Source: Acidobacteriaceae bacterium (lineage in GTDB: Bacteria > Acidobacteriota > Terriglobia > Terriglobales > Acidobacteriaceae). From it: a stretch of 64,000 nucleotides of DNA. The stretch is taken from assembly GCA_021323655.1 (NCBI GenBank), contig JAJPKO010000047.1, positions 62,001 through 126,000 of the forward strand, given 5' to 3'. The notes under the pieces are model-generated. The model made no database searches and was not told the DNA's origin. It was given only the letters and a program-made list of their open reading frames with translations. Positions 43,571 through 61,298 of the stretch are shown here, piece by piece. Numbering within the stretch: position 1 is the stretch's first letter; every line of letters starts with the position of its first letter. The position numbers and the translations under genes are program-made.

Positions 43571-43603
43571 AAAATAAAACGGCCCCGCACAAACGCGGGG
43601 TCC
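43571..43603 (-). terminator. Rho-independent terminator of the BON-domain gene
   Basis: On the minus strand GGACCCCGC pairs with GCGGGGCC around a 6-base loop (one bulged A), followed by GTTTTATTTTG. It is 26 bp beyond the BON gene stop. It separates that gene from the prenyltransferase gene, which then needs its own promoter. Confidence 0.8.
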
Positions 43604-43629: not shown

Positions 43630-44418
43630 CTATTTCTTTTCCGGCTGGTTGGCCACTTGCAGGTTGTTGGTGACGCTGAAGACACCAGGGACGGAGTTGG
43701 CACGGATTCCGGCGGCATCTTTGTCTGCCTGATTGTCTACCTCACCATATAGCGTCACATGCCCATTCTGCACAGAGATGCGAATCGGCTTGCCAGGATC
43801 AATGGCGTATTTATTCAGGCTCGGGAAGCCATACACAGCACGGAAGACCGCAATGCGGATACGATCATCCATGGGCGAAACCGGGTCCACCTGAATGTCA
43901 TTGATCACGTCTTTCACGCCTTTGGTGTTGGCCGCTACTGCGACTGCGGAATCTGCATCCACCGGGCCATAGGCATGTCCGCCCAGCGTAACAACGCCAT
44001 TCTGTACATTCACAGAAATGGCATTGAACGCCGTCGTGCCATAGCCCACGCGATCATACTGAATCGCTTTCAGCAGTTTCTGTTGGAGCTCCTGATCTGA
44101 AACCTCAGGGCCGGCAACTTCGATGTCATTTTCAACGCCCTTCACGTTCTTGATGCGATGCACACGCCGGTCCGCATCCGCCTTGGTGTCGTATACATCC
44201 ACCGTGCCGGTGAGGGTCACAATACCATTCTGCACGTTGACCTGAACGTTTTTGAACTTGGATTTGTTGAGCGCATTGTTCAGGACATCCGCTTTAATCT
44301 GTGTGTCCTGTGAGTTTTGCGCAACAGCAACGGCAGAGTGGGGCGCCATTGCTGAAGGGACGGCCACGAGCAAAGCCGCGGCCAAAGCTGGGACAAGACT
44401 GCGTGATACTTTATTCAT
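43630..44418 (-). CDS. Periplasmic protein with three BON domains
   Basis: 262 residues with a signal peptide (MNKVSRSLVPALAAALLVAVPSAMA). Three BON domains follow, each with the IKADVLNNAL-helix, the VNVQNGIVTLTGTV-type strands and the KGVxxVxNDIxV ending: about 38-103, 108-180 and 186-258. The repeated VQNG segments are VNVQNGIVTL, VNVQNGVVTLGGHA and ISVQNGHVTLYGE. BON proteins such as OsmY bind phospholipid or outer-membrane surfaces under osmotic stress. A strong terminator follows. A stress-envelope role fits the nearby CsbD/lmo0937 genes, but no shared regulation is seen. Confidence 0.93.
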   Translation of the reverse strand: MNKVSRSLVPALAAALLVAVPSAMAPHSAVAVAQNSQDTQIKADVLNNALNKSKFKNVQVNVQNGIVTLTGTVDVYDTKADADRRVHRIKNVKGVENDIEVAGPEVSDQELQQKLLKAIQYDRVGYGTTAFNAISVNVQNGVVTLGGHAYGPVDADSAVAVAANTKGVKDVINDIQVDPVSPMDDRIRIAVFRAVYGFPSLNKYAIDPGKPIRISVQNGHVTLYGEVDNQADKDAAGIRANSVPGVFSVTNNLQVANQPEKK

Positions 44419-44563: not shown

Positions 44564-47500
44564 TCAACGATAACGCCGATGCACCTTGAACAGAAGGCTG
44601 AAGACGCCTGACTCGTCGCGCACCGCAAGGATGGACACCGTTGGAGTCACATTGACCTCGGCCTGGATAAGCTGCTGTGCGGTTGAATTGATGTTCGTGG
44701 CATAGGTCAGGGTCGCATTCTTTGAGACCTGCTGCGAAACCGTGATACGGGCCGTAGAATTCCCTATCGAGCCCACCCATGAGGGATCAATCTTCACGCT
44801 GCCACCGCCAAACAACTTCTGGATACGGCTGCTCAGGGTTGCGTTCAGCGCGCCGCCCAGAATCGCGTCTGCCGTGGTGTTGACTCCCGCCTGCTGTGCC
44901 TGCATGGAATAAATTTGCTGCTCTTCCTGGGTACGCCCCATGGCCAGGAGCGAAAAGATGTCCTGCTGCGTAAGCGGCGGCTCAGAGCGGAAGGTAGGAC
45001 TCAGATTGCTGGGTGTGCCATGCACCCCGATCGTAATGTCGTAGTCTTCTACACGGGTGGTGGCGTCAATGTCAATCACCGGCTCAATGCGGACCGGATT
45101 GCTGAAGAAAATCTCGCCGTGCTGGAGCTGGTATTTTGTTCCGGCAAAGGTAGCGCTGCCTTCAGTGATGGTAATGCGCCCCAGCATAGAGGGCTGCGCT
45201 ACGGTCCCTCGAACATGCAAATCCACGTCTCCTGCCAGCTTCGCGTAGGAGTTCTGGAAATCAAGCTCCGGAGACGAGGTGATGTGTATGTTCAACCGGA
45301 CATGATTGGAGAACGCATTTGGATCAGGAGGAGGCGCTGTATTGGACGAAAGGCTACTGAAGCTGGCAAAATCCAGGTTCGGGTTGATGGTAAAACGTGT
45401 CAGCTGAACATTGCCGCTTACCACCAATGCGCTCTGCGTTCCCTGCAAACGCAACTTTGTATCAATCATCGAACTGATGCCAGCCGGGTATCGAATACGA
45501 ATGTCTTTCCCCGTGGCCGTCAGGTCCGTATAAATTCCCTGCTGATATGTAACATATCCGGCTACTTTTACCTGCCCACCGCCCGTGGTCCCCGTCAGGT
45601 TCTGCACCTGGAGCCTGCCTTGCGTAAATTGAAGGGTCCCGTTCAGCTGGTTGATGCCGTTCGGAAAACCCTCCACGCTCATCGCAACATTCGTCAGCTT
45701 TACCTGCCCGGTCAGATCTGGATTTTTGAACGTACCGCCAGCGTTCATCGAGAACGTGACCTCTCCAGACGAGGAGATATCGGAGCGTAGGGTCTGCAGC
45801 AACGCCAGATTCATGGAACCCTGCGCCTGAAAGTTCATTGGATGGCTGTCCTCGAAAATTCCAGCCTCGCCCTGCGCCCGCAGGTCCGTGTTGTCTCCTG
45901 TAATGTGAATGGGATCGAGATGCAGATTACCGTTGCGAAGCTGCGCATGCAGCGGTCCCTCGCTTCGCAGTGGGACGCCAGCAAGAGAAACGGCAAGCTG
46001 GCTGATCTGGGCATCTCCCTGCATCTGGCGCGGCATACGCAGCGGCCCTGAAACCGTGAGCATTCCTGCAATGGAGGAGTGCCCACGCACACTGTCCACG
46101 TGAAACATCTCAAGGAACGGATCTATGTCCACATTGGAGAGCTGCGCCTGCGCGTGGGTCAGGTAGTCGCCCGAGAGGGCCGTCTGCCCGCTGATCTCCA
46201 GTTGTGCCTGCGCCAGATGTCCGGTCGTGGTGTAGATCAGTTGGCCATTGCTGGTGTGCGCCGTCAGGTCCACCGCCCCATTCAACTGGTTTCCGACCAC
46301 GACGTGGGTCAGGTGCGCATTCACCTGCAAATTCGGCGCAGCCACCGTGCCTGACCCATTGGCCGTGAATACAAGCTGCCCCGTCACCGGCACACGCGTG
46401 TTCTGCAACCGCTCCATGTGCGAAAGGTCGAACCCTTTCCCTTGCGCTGCAAACTGGAATTGCTTTGTGCGGATGTGGTATCCGCCTTGCGCCGTCAGCT
46501 GCCCGCCATTTTCAAGCAGCGTCAGCTTTGTGGCACTCACCTCATCTCCGGCAAAGCGTAGATCGGCGGTCAGGCTGCGGTATGGCTCGCCATAAATCTT
46601 GCCTCCGGCAACTGAAAGATGTCCGCCTCCATTCAAATCGTCCAGCCTGCCCGCAGCATGCGCACTCAGGTTTACTGTTCCCGTCGTGTTGGGTATGTTA
46701 CGGCCCGACATTACGATTACGTCTGCAAGCTGAGCGTCCTTGACTGTAACATCTGCCTCAATCGCTGACTCCTCATCAAAAGACGGCCTGTGACCGCTGA
46801 AGTGATGCGCATGCAGCTGGCCTGAGGCGTGGATGATTGTAGTTCCACGCGTAAGTGTCGCCTGCTGGACCGCAATCAACCACTGTGAATATTCGGCATC
46901 CGTCACCAGTGAATCCCAGTGCAGCGTCTGGTCAGCGAGCAAAAGGTCAAAATTGCTGGCGGTCAAATGCCCCTTTGCATCCGGATGACTCAGTGTTCCG
47001 GAAACCGTGCCATGGAATTGCGCCTGCCCATCCAGACGCACGGGCAGCGCCTGGACGCCTCGCTTGCCCTGCGCTGCTACTCCCAGCGTGGAAAGCGCCT
47101 TATCAAACTCGCCCAGGTTCGTGGTTTCAACATTCACCAAAAGCGTAGAAGTGCGGCTGAGCGGATACACGCCAAGGCCGCCGCTGACGTCAAAGCGCGA
47201 CGCCGGCGTATGTGCCTGTAATTGCTTTACCTGGACCGTGCCATTGCTCTGGAAGTACGTTGCGTCTACGATTCCGGAGAGTGGCACCTCGCCTGCTGGA
47301 GTCTGCCTGGAAGGCGTAAGTGTCACGTTCGCCCTTCCCCGCAAATCAGAGGCATCTCCTGTCCAGTCTACGAATGTGTCACCGGCTACCCATGTATCGA
47401 ACCCAAGGTCCTCGTAATGTGGAGGAGCAACCATCGCCATGACGGGCTGCAACGAAAATCCGGCAATCTTTGCCCGAATACTTCCTTGCCGCACCCGTCC

Positions 47501-48589
47501 ATCCATCCAGTGGGCGATCCGCATCTCTGCATTCACTACACCACCGCGATCCAGCTTTACACGAATGTTCGTCAGTGCCAGGTCATCTTCCGTCATATGC
47601 AGCGACATATCAGCATTTGCGCCGCTGACGTGGACCGAACCGGTGTGGTACGCGGCCCCGGCCACGCGAACAAGCCCATTCATCAGGAACTGCTTTCCGA
47701 TCCCCTGCCCTTTTATGTCCAGCGCTGCAATGCCGCTGTCTACTCCCGGCACAGGCTCCAGCGCCATCACTTCGCGCACGTCTACGTTGCCCTGGGCGGT
47801 GAACGTCCAATGCGGGGCCGCAAAATCTTTCACTGAAGCCGTGGCCTGGAGCGCCTGACGGCCAGTCTGTAAACGAAACTGCGTCACGTCCAGCGTGTTC
47901 CGTCCTGCATCGGCAGAAAGATCTAGCTGAGAGCGCACCGGAGGCCGAATGCCCCGCTGCGCCACGATGTCCCCCGCGTGCAGCGCAGCCAGATAATGGT
48001 CATTGGCAGGCGAGTACGTCACTACCGCACCTAAATTATTCGCGGAAAGGTCAAAGGGCAGCACGCGTTGATTGATCAGTGCAACACCATCATGAATTTC
48101 TATTCGCCCCACCTGAAGATCAAAAATCTCATCTTTGATGGGTTTGCCGGTGTGCTGCGTCTTGGGCCGCGGCTGGTTCGTTAATCCATCCGGATAAACA
48201 ATCAGATGGATAGCCGGTTTATCCGCTTCAAGGTAGTTCAGGTCTATCTTTTTTGTGCCGAAGAAAGACAGTATCTTCACCCGCACGTAAATTCGGTTCA
48301 CATGCACATAGGGTGCTTCGTTGGCAGCTTCCAGGCCGTGGATCGTCAATCCATCAGCCTCAAAGGCAAGATGACGCAGCGACCAGCGAAACGCCTGCAA
48401 CTCAACCCGTCCGCCAGTGGATTGCTCCAGAACTGCCACCAGCTTTTCCCGCACAAGGTCCTCAAATTGCGGAGTGGATGCGTACCAGACCGCGGCGCCG
48501 ACGATCGCCAGCAGCACCGCAGCAATGATAAGCACCACACGCAGCCAGATGCGGCGGCGCGCCGGAGAAGCAACGGGTTCGGTGCTCAT
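44564..48589 (-). CDS. tamB: TamB/YtfN-like translocation and assembly module protein
   Basis: Very long periplasmic protein of 1341 residues anchored by one N-terminal helix (IWLRVVLIIAAVLLAIVGA, 14-36). The middle is a beta-rich repetitive body with alternating hydrophobics, as expected for AsmA/TamB-type lipid-conducting or barrel-assembly scaffolds. The C-terminal TamB (DUF490) domain carries GRITITEGSATFAGTKYQL, FFSNPVRIEPVIDIDA and TFRSEPPLTQQDIFSLLAMG. The start overlaps the stop of the SurA-N gene by 4 bases (ATGA). It is the last of a three-gene operon with an Omp85 protein, so a role in outer-membrane protein or phospholipid delivery is very likely. Confidence 0.94.
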   Translation of the reverse strand: MSTEPVASPARRRIWLRVVLIIAAVLLAIVGAAVWYASTPQFEDLVREKLVAVLEQSTGGRVELQAFRWSLRHLAFEADGLTIHGLEAANEAPYVHVNRIYVRVKILSFFGTKKIDLNYLEADKPAIHLIVYPDGLTNQPRPKTQHTGKPIKDEIFDLQVGRIEIHDGVALINQRVLPFDLSANNLGAVVTYSPANDHYLAALHAGDIVAQRGIRPPVRSQLDLSADAGRNTLDVTQFRLQTGRQALQATASVKDFAAPHWTFTAQGNVDVREVMALEPVPGVDSGIAALDIKGQGIGKQFLMNGLVRVAGAAYHTGSVHVSGANADMSLHMTEDDLALTNIRVKLDRGGVVNAEMRIAHWMDGRVRQGSIRAKIAGFSLQPVMAMVAPPHYEDLGFDTWVAGDTFVDWTGDASDLRGRANVTLTPSRQTPAGEVPLSGIVDATYFQSNGTVQVKQLQAHTPASRFDVSGGLGVYPLSRTSTLLVNVETTNLGEFDKALSTLGVAAQGKRGVQALPVRLDGQAQFHGTVSGTLSHPDAKGHLTASNFDLLLADQTLHWDSLVTDAEYSQWLIAVQQATLTRGTTIIHASGQLHAHHFSGHRPSFDEESAIEADVTVKDAQLADVIVMSGRNIPNTTGTVNLSAHAAGRLDDLNGGGHLSVAGGKIYGEPYRSLTADLRFAGDEVSATKLTLLENGGQLTAQGGYHIRTKQFQFAAQGKGFDLSHMERLQNTRVPVTGQLVFTANGSGTVAAPNLQVNAHLTHVVVGNQLNGAVDLTAHTSNGQLIYTTTGHLAQAQLEISGQTALSGDYLTHAQAQLSNVDIDPFLEMFHVDSVRGHSSIAGMLTVSGPLRMPRQMQGDAQISQLAVSLAGVPLRSEGPLHAQLRNGNLHLDPIHITGDNTDLRAQGEAGIFEDSHPMNFQAQGSMNLALLQTLRSDISSSGEVTFSMNAGGTFKNPDLTGQVKLTNVAMSVEGFPNGINQLNGTLQFTQGRLQVQNLTGTTGGGQVKVAGYVTYQQGIYTDLTATGKDIRIRYPAGISSMIDTKLRLQGTQSALVVSGNVQLTRFTINPNLDFASFSSLSSNTAPPPDPNAFSNHVRLNIHITSSPELDFQNSYAKLAGDVDLHVRGTVAQPSMLGRITITEGSATFAGTKYQLQHGEIFFSNPVRIEPVIDIDATTRVEDYDITIGVHGTPSNLSPTFRSEPPLTQQDIFSLLAMGRTQEEQQIYSMQAQQAGVNTTADAILGGALNATLSSRIQKLFGGGSVKIDPSWVGSIGNSTARITVSQQVSKNATLTYATNINSTAQQLIQAEVNVTPTVSILAVRDESGVFSLLFKVHRRYR

Positions 48590-49335
48590 GCTCCTCCTCC
48601 CGTGTCGTCATCAGTGCCCGTGCTCTTGCCATATTTTGGATCGAGGACCTGCACACTGCCCTGTTCGCGCAGGCTCTGGAGCCAGTCTCTCAACTGCGAA
48701 TTGACCTGCTGCTGGAGCAGAATCTCGCGAATGCGCGGAGCAACACTCTCCAGCTTCGGGGCAGGCTGTTTGGACTTTGCAAAAGCGGGAAGAAAATTGT
48801 TCTTGTAGTAATTTTCAATGTCCTGGCGGCCGATGTGGATGCTAACGCCAAAACGCTGATCAATAAATTTCAGTATTTCAAGCCGCTCTTTCCATCTGTC
48901 GTCCACTTCCTGTTCGGTCAGGCCACTCTTCCGCAAAAACGCCTGCCATCCGGCTTCCGTCGTGCAGTGCATCGGGCCGCATGCCGGAATCTGGTGGCGC
49001 AACTCGTCCAGGCTCTTCCGCACCTCCTCATCGCTCACAGAGTAGTTGATGCCATTCTGTTCCTTCATCTGCCGCAGAATAAGCGTCCTCGTAATCAGCC
49101 GCTGCGCGGCGCGCTCCTCCGTGTTCTGGCTTGCTGGCACTGAAATAGGCTGAAGGACAGAGAAGCGCATCTCTTCCCGCACATCGCTTTCCAGCAACAC
49201 ATCTCCGTTAATAATGGCAATCACGCGGTCCAGCACAACCGGCTGAGTGGCTATCTGCGAAAAAGCAGGGGCGCCCATGCAGCCGGAGAGCACGATCCCC
49301 GCCATCACAACTCCGCAATGTTTACGCCACGCCAT
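48586..49335 (-). CDS. SurA N-terminal-domain lipoprotein without a PPIase domain
   Basis: 249 residues. The N-terminus MAWRKHCGVVMAGIVLSGC has a lipobox (LSGC, Cys19), followed by a second cleavage-like AFSQ. The SurA N-domain begins VVLDRVIAIINGDVLLESDVREEM and continues through ERAAQRLITRTLILRQMKEQNGINYSVSDEEV. A C-terminal helix (PAPKLESVAPRIREILLQQQ) completes the SurA chaperone core. The parvulin PPIase domain, with its HILV...GGDLG motifs, is missing. Chaperone function for outer-membrane proteins is therefore expected without isomerase activity. The ATG overlaps the stop of the Omp85 gene (TGATG), and the end overlaps tamB (ATGA). Confidence 0.88.
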   Translation of the reverse strand: MAWRKHCGVVMAGIVLSGCMGAPAFSQIATQPVVLDRVIAIINGDVLLESDVREEMRFSVLQPISVPASQNTEERAAQRLITRTLILRQMKEQNGINYSVSDEEVRKSLDELRHQIPACGPMHCTTEAGWQAFLRKSGLTEQEVDDRWKERLEILKFIDQRFGVSIHIGRQDIENYYKNNFLPAFAKSKQPAPKLESVAPRIREILLQQQVNSQLRDWLQSLREQGSVQVLDPKYGKSTGTDDDTGGGA

Positions 49336-52300
49336 CAGAATGCCTGCCCAATGCTGAAGAAGAAATTAAAGTGTGGCGCCTGTCCGATTCGCGGAACGGG
49401 GCCACCGGAATAATCAATAATGATGGGGTAGATCGGCGGATTCAGGTTGTAGCTGAAATCCAGGCGCAACGGCCCCACAGGCGTGTGATACCTTACCCCC
49501 AGCCCGAGAGCATGTGAAAAATCATTAAAGCTGCACGTGCCCGCTCCGCCCGTGCTGGAGTGCTGATGCGGCACAGACTGGTCTGCTTCGCTCGTGTCTT
49601 TGCAGGTATAACTGTGCGGCTGCTTAATGCGAAACATGCTCGGCCATATGTCAGAGGAATTCTCAAAGACATTGCCCATATCGTGGAACAGCACAAACCC
49701 GAGAGCATTGCCAACATACGGCAGCGTTGGATTCGGCATGCGAAGCTCGGTGCTGTTTACAAACGCGCCCGCTCCTCCAATGGGATAGCCCGTCAGCGAA
49801 TCTCGCGGCCCCGCCGAATTAATACCAAAGCCACGATGCGACTGTGCGCCGCCAGCATACAGGCGCTCCGGAAGAGGAATCAGCTCATACTTGTCGGCTC
49901 CATACGATCGCTCAACCCCAATCCGGGTGCTCCGCGCCACTACCCATTTGTTCTGCTTCCCAAAGGAGTAGTAACTGGAGTTCGTTGCATCAATGCGATT
50001 AAAGTTCGCCTGCGAACCAAAGTGTGAATCGGCCCACGTGTCTTGGACCGTGTTGTAGGTGCCCCGCGTCGCATCCAGTGGCGTGGGCACGCGCGTGTCC
50101 CTCAGCCATGTAATGCCCGGCCCGCCAACGCGTACCGGCTGCGATACCAACGGAATCTCATTCGGAGCCACCTGCACGCTGTTCGGGTCCACCTTCACGC
50201 GGCGATAGCTCCATAGATAAATCAGCGTGTTCGGCTTGTTCACGTGGTGCGTCACGCGCATCGAGGCTTCCAGGCGGGATGCCGCATAGGTTGTCAGGTC
50301 CTGCGCGTTGGTGTAGCCGCCGGAGAGGATAGCATCGAATTTTGGATTGTCGAAAAGATGCGGATTCGAGAATATCGTCTGCACCCGCTGCTCCAACGTG
50401 CCATAGGTGGTGTTCAACGAGATGGATTTATCTGTTCCACGAAGATTGATGCGTGACACATTGAACAGAAATGCCGGACTTACGCCTGTCTTGCCATTCG
50501 GACTGCACGTATATGTGGACGGGTTGATGCCAAGCTGAATCAGTTCCTGCGGTGTGATGCTCTTGCAGTTCGTTTGCGGGTTCCCCGTCTGCGCCTGGAA
50601 ACCAAACCCATAGCTCACGTCCCATCGCCGCGCCTCAGTAAATTGCACCAGCACATTCTTGCGCAGCTCATCACCGCCCGGATTCTGCACCGCCGTATTG
50701 ACCTGATTAAAGAGCGTCAGGTCATACAGGCGCCGTTGCGTATCCAGCAGTGCTGACTGGTCCAGCGGATCACCAGGATGCAGCAGGACGCGGTCTTCCA
50801 CCGTGCTCGGACGCGTGTAATGCAGTCCTGAAATCAGCACGCGATTCACAAACACCTGCTCGCCTTCTGTCACATCCATGGTTACATCCATGGTGTTCGG
50901 CTTCGTCGTAGAGCGGTGCTGCGTCACCTGCACCTGGGCCTTATCAAAGCCATGGCTCAGGTAATAGCTCAGGATTGTGTCGCGATCGTTATTGACGTTC
51001 GCTGCCGAGTAGGGCTGCCCGGATTGTGTATTCAGCAAGGGAGTCAACTGGTCCCGCGGGATTTGCTGTGCGCCCTGGATCTCATAGTTCCCCAGCCGCA
51101 TCTGTGCCCCTTCTTCAATTCGGTAAGTCACCGTCATCAGGTCTGTCTTCAGGGGCTGTCCGTTTGGTGCCGTATCCACGTCCTTGATCTCCGGCGTGAC
51201 TTTCACGTCAGTAAAACCATTGCTCTGGTACAGGGCCTCAATACTACTGGCATCCGCCTGTGCCAGCGCGTAGCTGTACATGCCATGCCGGTTCACTATG
51301 TTTGCAGGAACAACACTCAGCCGTTGCCGAATCAGGTCGCTGTCAAAGTACTTATTGCCCGTAACGTGTACCGCATCCACGCGATGCTTGCTTCCCAGCG
51401 AAACATGGAAGGTAATCACAGCGTGCCGCGGATCCACCTGCTGCTCGGAATGTGTGACCTTTGCGTCAAAGTAGCTCTGGCGCTGGAAGTAATCGCGGAT
51501 GCGGCGGTCTGCCTCATTCAGCAGGTCCTCATCCACCGTGCCTTCTTCATAGATAGGGACCAGATTCTTGATCTTGCTCCGGCTGAGCGATGCTCCCTGC
51601 ACCTGGATCTTCACCAACGGTCCACGATTGGATGTAAAGCCGTAATTTAAATGGTTCACAGGAGGCTGGTAGTCCCGCGAATCCAGCTTGATGGTCGCTT
51701 CCAGACGGTCGTTCTTCTGGTAGTTCTTCCGCAGGCGGGTCAGCGCATTGCTTACCGTATTGCGCGTGACCTTCGAGCCTTCTTTCAGCTTGCCCGTTTT
51801 GCGGAACTTCTCAACGCTCATGCCGCTGTCACCCTGCACGGTCACATCGCCCACACGCGCCTGTTTTCCCAGTTCAATCTGGAAAGCCACATTTACCTGA
51901 GAATTGGGCTGGTCAATGCTGGTGCTGGCAAAGATCCGCGCAGCATAGTAGCCGTTTTCTTCCAGCGTCTGCCGCAACTGCAATTCGGCCTGTTGCAGCT
52001 TGTCGTCGGAAAAGACTGTTCCCGGATTCATGCGCGTCGAGCGCTCCAGCACGCCGGAAAGCCGTTCGCTTTTTACGCCTTCCACCGTAATGCGGCCGAT
52101 GAAGAGGTTGGGCGTCCCATCAAAAATAATCGTGACGGCGTTCCCACGGCGAATTCCTTCAACTTCGATCGTCTTGTACAGGCCGGTCTCATACAGGCGG
52201 CGCAGGCTCTCCCTCACCTTGTCAGGGTCCAGCGGCTGATGGGGCTGCTGGGCGAGCTTCTGGACCAGCGGTCCCAGACGGTCTGCATCAATTCCCTTGA

Positions 52301-52454
52301 ACTGGATGCCGTCTATCTGGAGCCCTTTCCACGTGCGCAGCGTATCGCCCGCCTGTGCGTCACTCTGCCCTCCTGCCCAGGTTGCATCAAACAACGTCAG
52401 GACCAGAAGGCCAATCCAGCAAATTCTCCACCAGGATTTGCAGCTAACGTCCAA
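49335..52454 (-). CDS. Omp85 family outer-membrane assembly protein (BamA/TamA-like) with seven POTRA repeats
   Basis: 1039 residues from a TTG at 52454 preceded by AGAGAGG. Signal peptide is WWRICWIGLLVLTLFDATWA. Seven POTRA-like repeats can be read, each with the beta-alpha-alpha-beta-beta layout and the glycine turn of the family: about 42-115, 116-197, 198-277, 278-355, 356-449, 450-533 and 534-608. A 16-strand barrel follows (609-1039) with the lid-loop motif SHRGFGIN and a C-terminal aromatic strand ending GQAF. BamA normally has five POTRA and TamA three. Heading an operon with SurA-N and TamB, it could serve as BamA or TamA; no second Omp85 is in the window. Located in the outer membrane. 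Confidence 0.92.
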   Translation of the reverse strand: MDVSCKSWWRICWIGLLVLTLFDATWAGGQSDAQAGDTLRTWKGLQIDGIQFKGIDADRLGPLVQKLAQQPHQPLDPDKVRESLRRLYETGLYKTIEVEGIRRGNAVTIIFDGTPNLFIGRITVEGVKSERLSGVLERSTRMNPGTVFSDDKLQQAELQLRQTLEENGYYAARIFASTSIDQPNSQVNVAFQIELGKQARVGDVTVQGDSGMSVEKFRKTGKLKEGSKVTRNTVSNALTRLRKNYQKNDRLEATIKLDSRDYQPPVNHLNYGFTSNRGPLVKIQVQGASLSRSKIKNLVPIYEEGTVDEDLLNEADRRIRDYFQRQSYFDAKVTHSEQQVDPRHAVITFHVSLGSKHRVDAVHVTGNKYFDSDLIRQRLSVVPANIVNRHGMYSYALAQADASSIEALYQSNGFTDVKVTPEIKDVDTAPNGQPLKTDLMTVTYRIEEGAQMRLGNYEIQGAQQIPRDQLTPLLNTQSGQPYSAANVNNDRDTILSYYLSHGFDKAQVQVTQHRSTTKPNTMDVTMDVTEGEQVFVNRVLISGLHYTRPSTVEDRVLLHPGDPLDQSALLDTQRRLYDLTLFNQVNTAVQNPGGDELRKNVLVQFTEARRWDVSYGFGFQAQTGNPQTNCKSITPQELIQLGINPSTYTCSPNGKTGVSPAFLFNVSRINLRGTDKSISLNTTYGTLEQRVQTIFSNPHLFDNPKFDAILSGGYTNAQDLTTYAASRLEASMRVTHHVNKPNTLIYLWSYRRVKVDPNSVQVAPNEIPLVSQPVRVGGPGITWLRDTRVPTPLDATRGTYNTVQDTWADSHFGSQANFNRIDATNSSYYSFGKQNKWVVARSTRIGVERSYGADKYELIPLPERLYAGGAQSHRGFGINSAGPRDSLTGYPIGGAGAFVNSTELRMPNPTLPYVGNALGFVLFHDMGNVFENSSDIWPSMFRIKQPHSYTCKDTSEADQSVPHQHSSTGGAGTCSFNDFSHALGLGVRYHTPVGPLRLDFSYNLNPPIYPIIIDYSGGPVPRIGQAPHFNFFFSIGQAF

Positions 52455-52555: not shown

Positions 52556-53581
52556 ATGCTTTTGGCGCAGTTTACCGAACGTTATTCCCGCCAGGTTCTC
52601 TACCCCGGAATTGGGGAAGAAGGCCAGGCAAAACTGGCCCGCTCGCACGTCGCTATCATCGGCTGCGGGGCCACCGGGGCGGCCGCCGCCAGTCTTCTGG
52701 CCCGCGCCGGAGTGGGCACTCTCACGCTGATAGACCGCGACTTCGTCGAGGAAAGCAACCTCCAGAGGCAGGTGCTGTTTGATGAAGCCGATGCGGCCCA
52801 GTCTCTTGCCAAAGCAGAAGCTGCCCGCCGGAAAATCTCTAGCTTTAACAGCGAAATCACCGTACATGCCCATGTCGCTGACCTGGTGCCAGGAAACATT
52901 CACAACCTGCTGTATGATGCAGCGATTGTTCTGGATGCAACCGACAATTTTGAGACGCGTTATCTGTTAAATGACTACGCGGTGGAACAGAACAAGCCGT
53001 GGATTTACGCCGCCGCCATTGGTGCTTATGCCGTCACAATGAATGTGCTTCCAGGCGAAACCGCGTGCCTCGCCTGCATCTTTCCTAAACCGCCGGGCGG
53101 CACGGTAGAGACCTGTGATACTGCAGGCATCCTGAATACTGCCGTCAATCTCGCCGCCTCCGTGGAAGCCACCGAGGCCATCAAACTCATCGTCGGCGCG
53201 CGGGAAAAAGTCCGCCGCAGCCTTCTCTCATTTGATCTCTGGACAAACGACCGCTCTGAAGTCCCCACTCAGCACCCCCGTCAGGACTGCGAAGTCTGCC
53301 AACAGCGCAATTTCGCCCATCTCCGGGGAGAGGGCCGGCCTCACATCACACTCTGCGGACGCAATTCCGTACAGATACACGAACGCCACCGCCCGGTAGA
53401 CTTTGTAGAGATGGAGCAGCGCCTTCGCCCTCACGGCACCGTGCGGCATAACAATATGCTTCTGCGGTTTGAATACAACGAGTATGTCCTCACCATCTTT
53501 GCCGACGGACGCGCAATTGTTCAGGGCACAACAGATGTGGCACAGGCCCGTAGCCTGTACGCGCGCTTCATCGGATCCTGA
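52556..53581 (+). CDS. ThiF/MoeB/HesA family E1-like adenylyltransferase
   Basis: Activates the C-terminus of a sulfur-carrier protein (ThiS, MoaD type) by adenylation. It has 341 residues. It begins with [16 protein letters not shown], the family start. The ATP/Rossmann loop is [19 protein letters not shown], followed by [15 protein letters not shown] with the catalytic Arg residues. The zinc Cys pairs are CLACIFP and CEVCQQ. The active Cys region is [11 protein letters not shown]. The C-terminal 80 residues ([17 protein letters not shown]) form an extra small domain with beta-rich character. No thiS or moaD is adjacent. The start follows GGGA at 9 bases. Divergent from the Omp85 operon. Confidence 0.92.
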
Positions 53582-57812: not shown

Positions 57813-60800
57813 TTAGTAGGTAAGTTTCAATCCGAACTGGATGATGCGCGGCTGGAAGGTGCTGGTCACCTGGCCACCCGTGCTCGGAGTACCGCCATGG
57901 ATTGCGCCCACAGGAACAGTCGCTCCCGGCGCGAACGTACCTGAGACGGTACCCAGCGTACCGCCCAGACCACTGCTGGGCAGGTAATAGTTCGTGTGGT
58001 TGAAGATGTTGTAGAACTCTGACCGAAACTCCAGCTTCATGCCTTCAATCGGCAGGCTGAATGTCTTGTTCGCCGCCAGGTCGGTCTGGTAAAACGCCGG
58101 GGTCCTTCCTGGATTTCTGGAAGAATTTCCAAAAGGGCTCAACAGGTTTCCAGCCGCGTCCTTTGTGGGTGGCAGCACAAATGCCGCATAGTTCACATAC
58201 TGCACGTATCCAGTACCCGGCAGCCTTGATTTCTTGACCAGCGGCTGGCCCGGCACACGGTTCGGGCGATAAAGGTTCGCGCCGCGATAGCTGGCCGTGA
58301 TCTGCTGCGAAACCTGGTTCGACGAGCTCGGCGAGTACGTAATGTTAAACGGAGTGCCCGCCTGCATCGTATTGATCCCGCTGATCTGCCATCCACCGAG
58401 AACAGCATTCACAAAGCCGTTCGCATCAGACAAAAACGCACGGCCGCGCCCGAAGGGCAGTTCGTAAACCAGGCTGGTAATGTTCGCAATCGGCAGGTTG
58501 TAGTCCGACTGTGAATAATCCGCGCTGAGGTGCGTTCCATCCTGTGGAGATGGCGTATTGCCTTCGAGTGAGGCGCTGGCGTTGTCCAGCGAATGCTCCG
58601 AGGTAAATGAATTCAGCAGCGTCAATCCTCCGGTAAAGCGCTGCTCATAGCGCGATTGCAGCGAATCAAAGTGCGAATAGAAAGCGTTCAACGCTTCGGT
58701 AATATCCGAAGGCCAGTTCGCAAATGGTCGCGTCGTAAAGTTGGTGGAAGGAATTTTCTGATTGGCATTCAGGAAACCCTGTAGCTTTACGCCATGGTTC
58801 CCAACGTAAGCCACGTCAAAAACGATGTTCTTTGCAAGTTGCCGTTGCACGCTCACAAAGTAGCTCTCAACGTAGCTGTCGCTGGTATTTTTCGGGATCC
58901 ACGTAATATTGTCAGTCGCCGCATTGAACACCATCAAAGACGAGGGAAAGCCCTGATCAATCGTCACAAAGCACGAAGTGGCAGGTGCGCCAGCCGGGCA
59001 ATGCGTTGCGCTCGAAGGCTTCACCGCCTGCGATCCAACAGCGGCAAACTGCGCCTGCGGCGCATTGATGCCCAGGATGTCTCCAGACCCCGCGCGCGTG
59101 TAGTGAACAAAGCTCACGCCAAAACCACCATGTACCACCGTCTTTGCATCGGGCGACCAGGCAAAACCAATGCGTGGCCCAAAGTCGTTCAGATCAGGAT
59201 TCACCAGCGTGCTGCCATACACTCCACCCGCTTTCACCGGAGTAATCCCATTGCCGGCAACCGCGTTCGGATTGATCGTAAGCACAGTCTGCGAAACCGG
59301 ATCGAAGTTGGAAATATAGTTGTGCTGTTCTGAGTAGGGCGCGCCATATTCCCAACGCAACCCATAATTCAGCGTAAGCTGCGGCGTAATCTTCCAGTCG
59401 TCCTGCGCATACACGTTGTCCATCGTCGTGCGCAGGTGCGCTACAAAATAATTGGCCAGCGCATAAGAAGACGGCGTCCCAAAAAGGAAATCGGCCCAGT
59501 AATTGTCGGCAACTGGAGGGCCGGAGCCGGTGTTTGTGTAGTCTGACGTGAAGCCGAATGCGCCATACAGCGGATTGTTGTCATTCACCGCCATCCAGAT
59601 GTGCTCATATTCGTAGCCGAACTTCATCGAGTGCTTGCCTTTCACCCATGTGAAGTTGACCTTTGGATCAAGCAGCGCCGGGTTCTGCCACTGCGGATTC
59701 GTGCTCTGGCGTCCGAACGCGCTGAAATTCGTAATGCTGGTCGAAGGCAGTCCGCCAGCCACCACAGGGTTGGAAGGCAGACCGGGAATGGTGATGGAGT
59801 GGTCCCCGATTGAAAGCGTGTACTTCCCTGCTTTTGTGCGCGAAACTCCCAACCGTGCCTCCAGCACTTTGTTCGAGCCAAAAAGATGTGTATATCCAAG
59901 CGCAACCTGCTGGTCCAGAATCCGGATCGTTCCGTTCGTCTGCCCGTCCAGAGGCAGCGGCAATGCAGGATAATTCACGCCCGTCTCTTTCCTGTCGCTG
60001 ATACGCAAAAACCAGGAACTCGATGCGCTCTGCTGCCAGTCCAGGCGAAGGTCGCCTTTGTCGGAATTGTCCGTAAATGGCACCAGACGGGAATAATCGT
60101 TCGACGCTACACCGGTGGACGGAGATCCCGCGACTGGCAGAGGAATCTGCCGGAAAAACTTGACCACCTGCAATGAGATCGGATTAAAGTCGCTGTCTGG
60201 AATCTGCTGGCCTTTACCGTAGATTTTTCCTGTAATCGGATTCTTCACCGGAACCACCAGAATTCCGTTCAGCTCATTCTGCGTAGGCAGTGTAAATGCG
60301 CCGAGAGGCTTCAGCGTCTGGCGAAAGCCCTCATAGTCCAGGAAAAAGAAGAGCCGGTTCCACAGAATAGGCCCGCCAAAATTCATTCCGAACTGGTTGC
60401 GGTTAAATGTGGGCTTCTGGAACGGCACCGGTCCCAGCGTCCCCGTCAGTGTGGGCTTAAAAAATCCAGCCGCATTCAGGTCCGTATTACGAATGAACTC
60501 ATACAGCATGGCATGAAAATTGTTCGTGCCCGACTGCGATGCCACATTGATGGTCGCTCCGGAAGAACGCCCATATTCCGCATTTTCGTTGTTCGTAACA
60601 ATCTGCCACTGCGAAACCGAGTCTGGCGGAATCGCGATGATCTGGTTATCAAATCCCTGATTGCTTTCGCCGTAAGCATTGTTGTCCAGGCCATCCAGCA
60701 AAAAGTTATTGAAAACACTGCGCTGTCCGTTGATGTTATAAGATCCGGCGCGCGTCAGGCTGTTCACAGAACTGGTGAGCGCCGCAGTCGGTGCCTGTCG

Positions 60801-61298
60801 TGATCCGGTAACCAGCGCAAGCAGATCAGAATAATTCCGGCTCACCAGCGGCAGCGCCGCGCTCTGGTACTGCGTAATCACTTGCCCGCGCTGGCTGGAT
60901 TCAGTTTCAAGCTGCAGCGCAACATCACTCACTTCTACCGTTTCCTGCGCCTGCCCTGGTTGCAGCTTCAGATCAATGCGCTGGCGGCTGCCAACAGAAA
61001 GCGTAATCTTCTCTGCCACAGCATCAGAAAATCCCGGCATCGAAGCCACTACCCGATACACCCCTACGCGCAGCGACGGAATTTCCCAGTTCCCACTGCC
61101 ATCCGTCGTCGTCTTGTTTTCGATTCCTGTAGCCGTATTGGTAACAACAATCGTTGCACCGGCAACATTCGCGCCCGTTGAATCGTGGATCGTGCCCACC
61201 AGACTTCCATTATCAAACTGCGCACGGGCAGCACAGGGAATCAAAAGAACAAAGCCCGCCAGGAGCAGGCAAAACTGGCCAAACCTGTTGGATTGCAT
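57813..61298 (-). CDS. Oar-like TonB-dependent receptor with carboxypeptidase-regulatory domain
   Basis: Outer-membrane transporter of 1161 residues. Signal peptide MQSNRFGQFCLLLAGFVLLIPCAARA. Residues about 27-110 form the carboxypeptidase-regulatory (CarboxypepD_reg) domain: GSLVGTIHDSTGANVAGATIVVTN and NGWE-like GNWEIPSLRVGVYRV. The plug (about 115-230) contains TVEVSDVALQLE and NTYG-like NNAYGESNQGFDNQIIAIPPDSV. The large barrel has GWQISGINTMQAGTPFNITY and ends with IIQFGLKLTY. This type is expanded in Acidobacteria and thought to take up large glycans or oligopeptides, and may be energised by a TonB not seen here. The operator is unknown. A clean terminator follows. Confidence 0.95.
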   Translation of the reverse strand: MQSNRFGQFCLLLAGFVLLIPCAARAQFDNGSLVGTIHDSTGANVAGATIVVTNTATGIENKTTTDGSGNWEIPSLRVGVYRVVASMPGFSDAVAEKITLSVGSRQRIDLKLQPGQAQETVEVSDVALQLETESSQRGQVITQYQSAALPLVSRNYSDLLALVTGSRQAPTAALTSSVNSLTRAGSYNINGQRSVFNNFLLDGLDNNAYGESNQGFDNQIIAIPPDSVSQWQIVTNNENAEYGRSSGATINVASQSGTNNFHAMLYEFIRNTDLNAAGFFKPTLTGTLGPVPFQKPTFNRNQFGMNFGGPILWNRLFFFLDYEGFRQTLKPLGAFTLPTQNELNGILVVPVKNPITGKIYGKGQQIPDSDFNPISLQVVKFFRQIPLPVAGSPSTGVASNDYSRLVPFTDNSDKGDLRLDWQQSASSSWFLRISDRKETGVNYPALPLPLDGQTNGTIRILDQQVALGYTHLFGSNKVLEARLGVSRTKAGKYTLSIGDHSITIPGLPSNPVVAGGLPSTSITNFSAFGRQSTNPQWQNPALLDPKVNFTWVKGKHSMKFGYEYEHIWMAVNDNNPLYGAFGFTSDYTNTGSGPPVADNYWADFLFGTPSSYALANYFVAHLRTTMDNVYAQDDWKITPQLTLNYGLRWEYGAPYSEQHNYISNFDPVSQTVLTINPNAVAGNGITPVKAGGVYGSTLVNPDLNDFGPRIGFAWSPDAKTVVHGGFGVSFVHYTRAGSGDILGINAPQAQFAAVGSQAVKPSSATHCPAGAPATSCFVTIDQGFPSSLMVFNAATDNITWIPKNTSDSYVESYFVSVQRQLAKNIVFDVAYVGNHGVKLQGFLNANQKIPSTNFTTRPFANWPSDITEALNAFYSHFDSLQSRYEQRFTGGLTLLNSFTSEHSLDNASASLEGNTPSPQDGTHLSADYSQSDYNLPIANITSLVYELPFGRGRAFLSDANGFVNAVLGGWQISGINTMQAGTPFNITYSPSSSNQVSQQITASYRGANLYRPNRVPGQPLVKKSRLPGTGYVQYVNYAAFVLPPTKDAAGNLLSPFGNSSRNPGRTPAFYQTDLAANKTFSLPIEGMKLEFRSEFYNIFNHTNYYLPSSGLGGTLGTVSGTFAPGATVPVGAIHGGTPSTGGQVTSTFQPRIIQFGLKLTY

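Follow-up and report, generated by a model that had tools for sequence, protein, structure and literature searches.

Which partners does a BamA-like outer membrane protein serve when its periplasmic arm carries more POTRA domains than BamA or TamA? BamA usually has five of these domains in front of its β-barrel, and the TamA of Proteobacteria has three. An Acidobacteriaceae bacterium encodes an Omp85 protein with seven, within the stretch of 64,000 nucleotides analysed here (assembly GCA_021323655.1, contig JAJPKO010000047.1, positions 62,001 to 126,000; hereafter the window), and tamB lies two genes downstream of its gene, omp85. The way in which TamB hands over its cargo at the outer membrane remains under study. 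We propose that the window protein is probably the Omp85 partner of TamB, a BamA paralogue that does the work of TamA with a seven-POTRA arm.

POTRA domains of the window protein and its relatives

The omp85 reading frame starts with TTG on the minus strand and encodes 1039 amino acids (Table 1). In the whole protein, the Pfam POTRA profile PF07244 matched seven stretches, each with E ≤ 1 (whole-protein E = 4.9e-64). Searched singly, segments 117-197, 280-356, 355-453, 452-532, and 531-612 gave E = 1.4e-11, 9.5e-10, 1.7e-10, 7e-14, and 1.2e-6, respectively; segment 197-281 gave E = 1.1e-7, covering profile positions 2-64 of 79 only, and the weakest of the seven, segment 41-118, reached E = 7.9e-4 and 20.5 bits, just below the cut-off of 21.3. 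A six-frame scan of the genome reported 6 of the 7, all above the cut-off. An AlphaFold2 model built from 49 aligned sequences (relatives 48-76% identical; mean pLDDT 83.2, pTM 0.65) contained seven complete β-α-α-β-β units in residues 46-607, followed by 16 barrel strands within residues 611-1035, and PF01103 matched the barrel. The POTRA array followed by a 16-strand barrel that defines the Omp85 superfamily was thus found by both profiles and by the model. A flexible arm is consistent with the modest pTM, and the spatial placement of the domains in the model is not to be trusted. The third segment is modelled as a regular POTRA with a pLDDT of about 90, which rules out a linker at this place. 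The original prediction, made by eye from the sequence, had read seven repeats at residues of about 42 to 608, and both the count and the limits agree with the modelled units; neither the profile search nor the structure prediction returned five or fewer domains with the rest as linker.

To count POTRAs in relatives, we took the best 80 of 236 loci found in named genomes as related loci and searched them with a POTRA profile of our own, used at its first iteration; later iterations drifted (model length 96, 106, 122, 118) and blurred the boundaries. On the reference pair, this profile found seven POTRAs in the window protein and five in the genome's own canonical BamA (locus L009, contig C61), for which Pfam also gave five. 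Seven were detected in 77 of the 80 related loci, which rules out an oddity of one genome. The remaining three had six, one being cut by its contig (L034) and two lacking a detectable first repeat (L064 and L082); L104, a relative beyond those 80, also had six. The 21 BamA frames chosen from the phylum had five hits in 15 cases and four in 6, never above five. The distance from the first POTRA to the barrel model was 532-579 residues in 45 seven-hit rows versus 398-419 in 15 five-hit BamA rows.

A tree of 98 chosen rows, made by a quick search from the last three POTRAs and the barrel, split 78 rows of the window's kind from 20 canonical BamA rows with an SH-aLRT support of 100. The tree leaves out duplicate or short loci (L143-L171, L137, L200, L206, L208, L210), most of L013-L122, and rows in which POTRA hits numbered below three, the barrel hit was missing, or the span was short (L184, L192, L195, L197, and a single BamA row of the 21). 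A contig titled Rhodanobacteraceae (Pseudomonadota) that carries the same gene cluster (L087:9001-12015) sits among Acidobacteriaceae in the tree and is probably mis-assigned or mis-binned.

The tamB gene cluster and TamB-Omp85 fusions

The product of the window's tamB scored 144.1 bits against PF04357 (cut-off 22.4, E = 9e-42), the sole match to this family in the genome at E ≤ 0.001, and it did not pass the NCBIfam TamB equivalog (71 versus a cut-off of 825 bits). Between omp85 and tamB lies a middle gene that shares 1 nucleotide with the omp85 stop and 4 nucleotides with tamB. The same order on one strand was found in 77 of the 80 related loci, the other three (L079, L085, L091) stopping at contig ends, and at each of the two junctions 75 of the 77 had a gap of at most 5 nucleotides, overlaps counted. 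Among 26 rows from other families in which the genes are also separate, a same-strand tamB frame lay in the locus in 24; it preceded omp85 in 21 of these and followed it in 3, and the window's order, with tamB after omp85, is the less common one in this group.

The middle gene belongs to a conserved family. Its modelled product is helical (pLDDT 88), and the top Foldseek matches were SurA chains in BAM-SurA complexes (E = 1.7e-5), so that the fold is that of the SurA core; the score against Pfam SurA_N was 27.3 bits, below the cut-off of 30.8. No peptidyl-prolyl isomerase (PPIase) domain was present among its Pfam matches, and a rotamase scan of the genome matched other contigs only. A 741-amino-acid frame of the same genome matches the family in two stretches that flank a rotamase domain, and by comparison with this architecture the middle gene, which encodes a SurA core, looks like such a chaperone minus its PPIase. 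The gene adjoins omp85 in 19 of the 20 rows of the window's clade, lying further off in the remaining one, and in 12 of the 26 other separate rows, with one more at 791 nucleotides. Seven of the 13 separate rows without it have fewer than 900 nucleotides downstream, and longer copies of three of these seven loci (L206, L208, L210) do carry it.

We surveyed 149 sampled Acidobacteriota genomes with Omp85 and TamB profiles. TamB, at least one POTRA, and the barrel were found in one frame in at least 34 distinct frames (41 loci minus seven duplicates) from at least 33 of the 149 genomes, spanning at least 21 of 62 family labels; these counts are lower bounds because only long frames were taken and both match lists are incomplete. 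The fused loci (L123-L132, L172-L183, L185-L188, L190-L193, and L195-L198; for example, L126:4414-10620) come from other Acidobacteriota families and encode about 1560-2540 amino acids in the order TamB domain, short linker, POTRAs, and barrel. Two candidates stayed out of this count. L194 is cut by its contig, and in L184 (4458-10905) TamB shares a frame with five POTRAs and the barrel occupies another, overlapping one, as in a broken or mis-sequenced fusion gene. In L124, L125, and L126 (2036-2428 amino acids), Pfam found all three parts, TamB, the POTRAs, and the barrel, within a single chain, with 4, 6, and 4 POTRAs at E ≤ 0.01 compared to 5, 7, and 5 by our own profile. Some fusions had few POTRA hits (two each in L192 and L195, one in L197).

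The TamB domain is complete to its end in the 31 fused proteins studied: its match reached profile position 356-359 of 359, and the first POTRA began 12-53 residues further on. The match ended at position 359 on F, Y, or W in 21 of the 31, as it did in 19 of 20 separate TamB proteins, there at most 2 residues from the stop. Within their first 120 residues, 26 of the 31 have a strongly hydrophobic segment suited to an inner-membrane anchor, and two of the five proteins without one are open at a contig edge. That some relatives carry TamB and the barrel in one chain suggests joint action as one bridge linking the two membranes.

On the tree, the fused and separate states require three changes, which may represent three fusions or fewer fusions plus later splits. 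One clade holds 28 fused rows, another holds the two seven-POTRA fusions, and L181 (four POTRA hits) stands alone. Single-origin tests on a 44-row subset with 18 of the 31 fused rows and a simpler model rejected a grouping of all fused rows (p-AU = 1.4e-6), of the pair of seven-POTRA fusions with the main fused clade (p = 0.0013), or of L181 with that clade (p = 1.6e-80 as printed); these p values are generous because the first tree had been seen before the groups were defined.

Downstream of tamB, at a distance of 145 nucleotides, is a gene with three BON domains, found in the same position in 43 of the 64 loci with enough flank; it probably belongs to the same cluster, perhaps as a fourth member. 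The hairpin after it is weak evidence of a terminator, since the scan returned 11 sites in the region versus 8.8 expected by chance.

Table 1. Coordinates in the window of omp85, its domains, and the genes and hairpin downstream
Feature	Position	Strand	Evidence
omp85 (TamB-linked BamA paralogue)	49335..52454	-	ORF, Pfam, AlphaFold, tree
POTRA 1 (residues 46-115), likest BamA POTRA 1	52110..52319	-	Model; Pfam E = 7.9e-4
POTRA 2 (residues 118-194)	51873..52103	-	Pfam singly and model
POTRA 3 (residues 200-276), extra internal by profile comparison	51627..51857	-	Pfam, model, profiles
POTRA 4 (residues 280-352), extra internal by profile comparison	51399..51617	-	Pfam, model, profiles
POTRA 5 (residues 357-447)	51114..51386	-	Pfam singly and model
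POTRA 6 (residues 453-529)	50868..51098	-	Pfam singly and model
POTRA 7 (residues 535-607), adjoins barrel	50634..50852	-	Pfam singly and model
16-strand Omp85 barrel (residues 611-1035)	49350..50624	-	PF01103 at 670-1039; model
SurA-core-like gene without PPIase domain (249 aa)	48586..49335	-	Pfam, AlphaFold, Foldseek, 45-row alignment
tamB (1341 aa)	44564..48589	-	PF04357
Gene with three BON domains (262 aa)	43630..44418	-	Pfam
Terminator-like hairpin after BON gene (weak evidence)	43583..43600	-	Hairpin scan

Elsewhere in the window, an open reading frame at 52556-53581, divergent from omp85 and about 100 nucleotides from it, is by eye ThiF/HesA-like. Another of 1161 amino acids at 57813-61298 resembles, also by eye, the TonB-receptor-like proteins common in Acidobacteria, and a similar frame lies near the BamA gene (L009:526-3969).

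Role of the seven-POTRA arm

To assess which POTRA corresponds to which, we compared rows with a complete set of hits: 22 of the 26 separate rows from other families, all 21 Terriglobia-type rows including the window, both seven-POTRA fusions, 19 of 29 fused rows with fewer POTRAs, and 14 of 20 BamA rows. In profile-profile comparisons, the five POTRAs of the main fused clade fell on the diagonal with 3, 4, 5, 6, and 7 of both seven-POTRA sets, the two seven-POTRA fusions had all seven on the diagonal, and the POTRAs of canonical BamA mapped to 1, 2 (tied with 6), 5, 6, and 7. By this mapping the two extra POTRAs look like internal numbers 3 and 4, in agreement with Heinz et al., and the main fused clade appears to be without 1 and 2. 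For single sequences, POTRA 1 had BamA POTRA 1 as its best match in 43 of 43. Agreement for the five POTRAs of the fused rows was partial: they were on the diagonal in 12, 16, 14, 10, and 19 of 19 with one set and in 7, 14, 6, 7, and 16 of 19 with the other; the control was itself imperfect (7 of 22 for number 3 and 10 of 22 for number 5).

In the function that we propose for the window protein, TamB, with its inner-membrane anchor and periplasmic groove, would dock on the POTRA arm and pass phospholipid and/or unfolded outer membrane protein to the lateral gate of the barrel. POTRAs 3 and 4 would have been added to a BamA-like array on its TamB side, and POTRA 1 (with 2) could receive the SurA-core protein, as POTRA 1 of Escherichia coli BamA receives SurA. 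Published work describes comparable contacts: in TamAB structures TamB touches POTRAs 1-3 of TamA and its last strand pairs with TamA strand 1 (PMC12800296), TamB of Borrelia binds POTRAs 2 and 3 of BamA (PMC11361582), and the sheet of BamA POTRA 1 in E. coli is extended by the N-terminal strand of SurA (PMC11970506, PMC11366764). By analogy with the last case, we infer binding of the SurA-core protein to POTRA 1. In the original prediction, the long arm might reach as far as TamB or provide extra chaperone sites; the genome supports a link to both, with tamB two genes downstream, a conserved order, fusions in relatives, and a SurA-core gene in between, and the part that concerns which repeat binds what stays conjectural. 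More tentative, and in our judgement somewhat short of an even chance, is a transenvelope machine whose halves were joined several times, with a hypothetical docking plan in which POTRAs 1-2 would take the SurA core, 3-4 the end of TamB, and 5-7 would feed the barrel; the joined chain would then run from an inner-membrane helix through the TamB groove and the POTRAs to the outer membrane barrel.

Several observations weigh against a role as TamB partner. The window protein passed the NCBIfam BamA equivalog TIGR03303 (359.7 versus 297.15 bits), scored far below the cut-off of the NCBIfam TamA model (88.1 versus 625 bits), and had E. coli BamA chains as its best Foldseek matches. The POTRA-by-POTRA mapping is clear for profiles and noisy for single sequences, controls included. 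A tamB frame was absent from the 17-kb locus of one separate-gene relative (L136); in L211, the other row of the 26 without one, the locus starts at the edge of its contig. No SurA-like gene adjoined omp85 in six separate seven-POTRA loci whose flank was long enough. Nor was a SurA-like gene found beside any of the 31 fused genes, 28 of which have at least 900 nucleotides downstream. Speaking against a strict rule for its presence are the six separate loci, its absence from both seven-POTRA fusions, the non-independence of the fused rows, and the building of the SurA-like profile from separate-gene loci.

The scores for BamA, together with a BamA-like POTRA 1 and the adjoining SurA-core gene, are what would be expected of a second BamA with a general duty in outer membrane protein assembly, tamB being near merely as a fellow envelope gene. 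We nevertheless regard such a protein as unlikely, since the genome already has a five-POTRA BamA, the window protein falls outside the canonical BamA branch, and in relatives TamB is joined to Omp85 proteins of this type. The fusions would lose their weight if they were wrong-frame extensions or assembly errors, and GC-rich genomes do allow long wrong-frame runs over neighbouring genes; this is probably the case in L141 and L142, whose long N-terminal parts appear to extend over a separate tamB and which were not counted. For the fusions as a whole an artefact is very improbable, because the TamB, POTRA, and barrel profiles match the same frame in the many genomes and family labels counted above, one fused genome (G057) is a single 6.0-Mb contig, and Pfam agrees on all three fusions tested. 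It could also be that the two extra POTRAs merely lengthen the arm across a wide periplasm and have no particular partner. Length alone could account for the retention of seven, but the main fused clade keeps those best matching 3-7, so that the internal POTRAs are retained and 1-2 are missing, which makes this explanation doubtful as well. A TamB-partner Omp85 stays the most probable reading.

Comparison with known systems

The seven-POTRA architecture is already known in outline. BamA proteins with more than five POTRAs have been noted (Heinz and Lithgow 2014, PMC4104836), and Heinz et al. (2015, PMC4494059) describe in Acidobacteria a second BamA encoded with tamB, branching apart and in some cases having seven POTRAs, of which the third had diverged; whether the internal segments were genuine POTRAs was doubted. 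The main text of PMC4494059 contains no match for SurA, fusion, or fused, and no report of a TamB-Omp85 fusion was found in open-licence PubMed Central full texts, which exclude preprints and most subscription papers. To our knowledge, three elements are new: a structural model that predicts a regular POTRA for the internal repeat placed in doubt, the conserved gene between omp85 and tamB that encodes a PPIase-less SurA core, and the recurrent fusion, in nature, of TamB to an Omp85 of this type. The model is relevant to the doubt of 2015. A natural single chain sets the order and the ratio of its parts and could be purified whole; in the seven-POTRA form, candidate sites for TamB and for a chaperone can be separated. 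Automatic annotation may label the window protein and two fusions, L126 and L125, as BamA, because all three pass TIGR03303 (340.9 and 397.6 bits in the fusions); the separate L138 fails (275.8).

Compared to TamA/TamB of Proteobacteria, the window protein is likewise an Omp85 with a 16-strand barrel that is encoded with tamB, and it differs in having seven POTRAs instead of three and in falling below the TamA cut-off. The TamA structure 8us1 aligned to its residues 358-1039 (Z = 25.6); this second structural comparison gave mainly barrel and last-POTRA matches and says little about POTRAs 1-4. With BamA it shares the POTRA and barrel fold and the equivalog match, whereas its seven POTRAs instead of five, its own branch, and its tamB neighbour set it apart. 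The middle gene product has the SurA core fold, unlike SurA in being without PPIase and below the SurA_N cut-off. Also close is the second BamA of Heinz et al.: the window protein is likewise a BamA duplicate beside tamB and apart from canonical BamA, and it differs in that its model predicts a regular internal POTRA where that paper expressed doubt.

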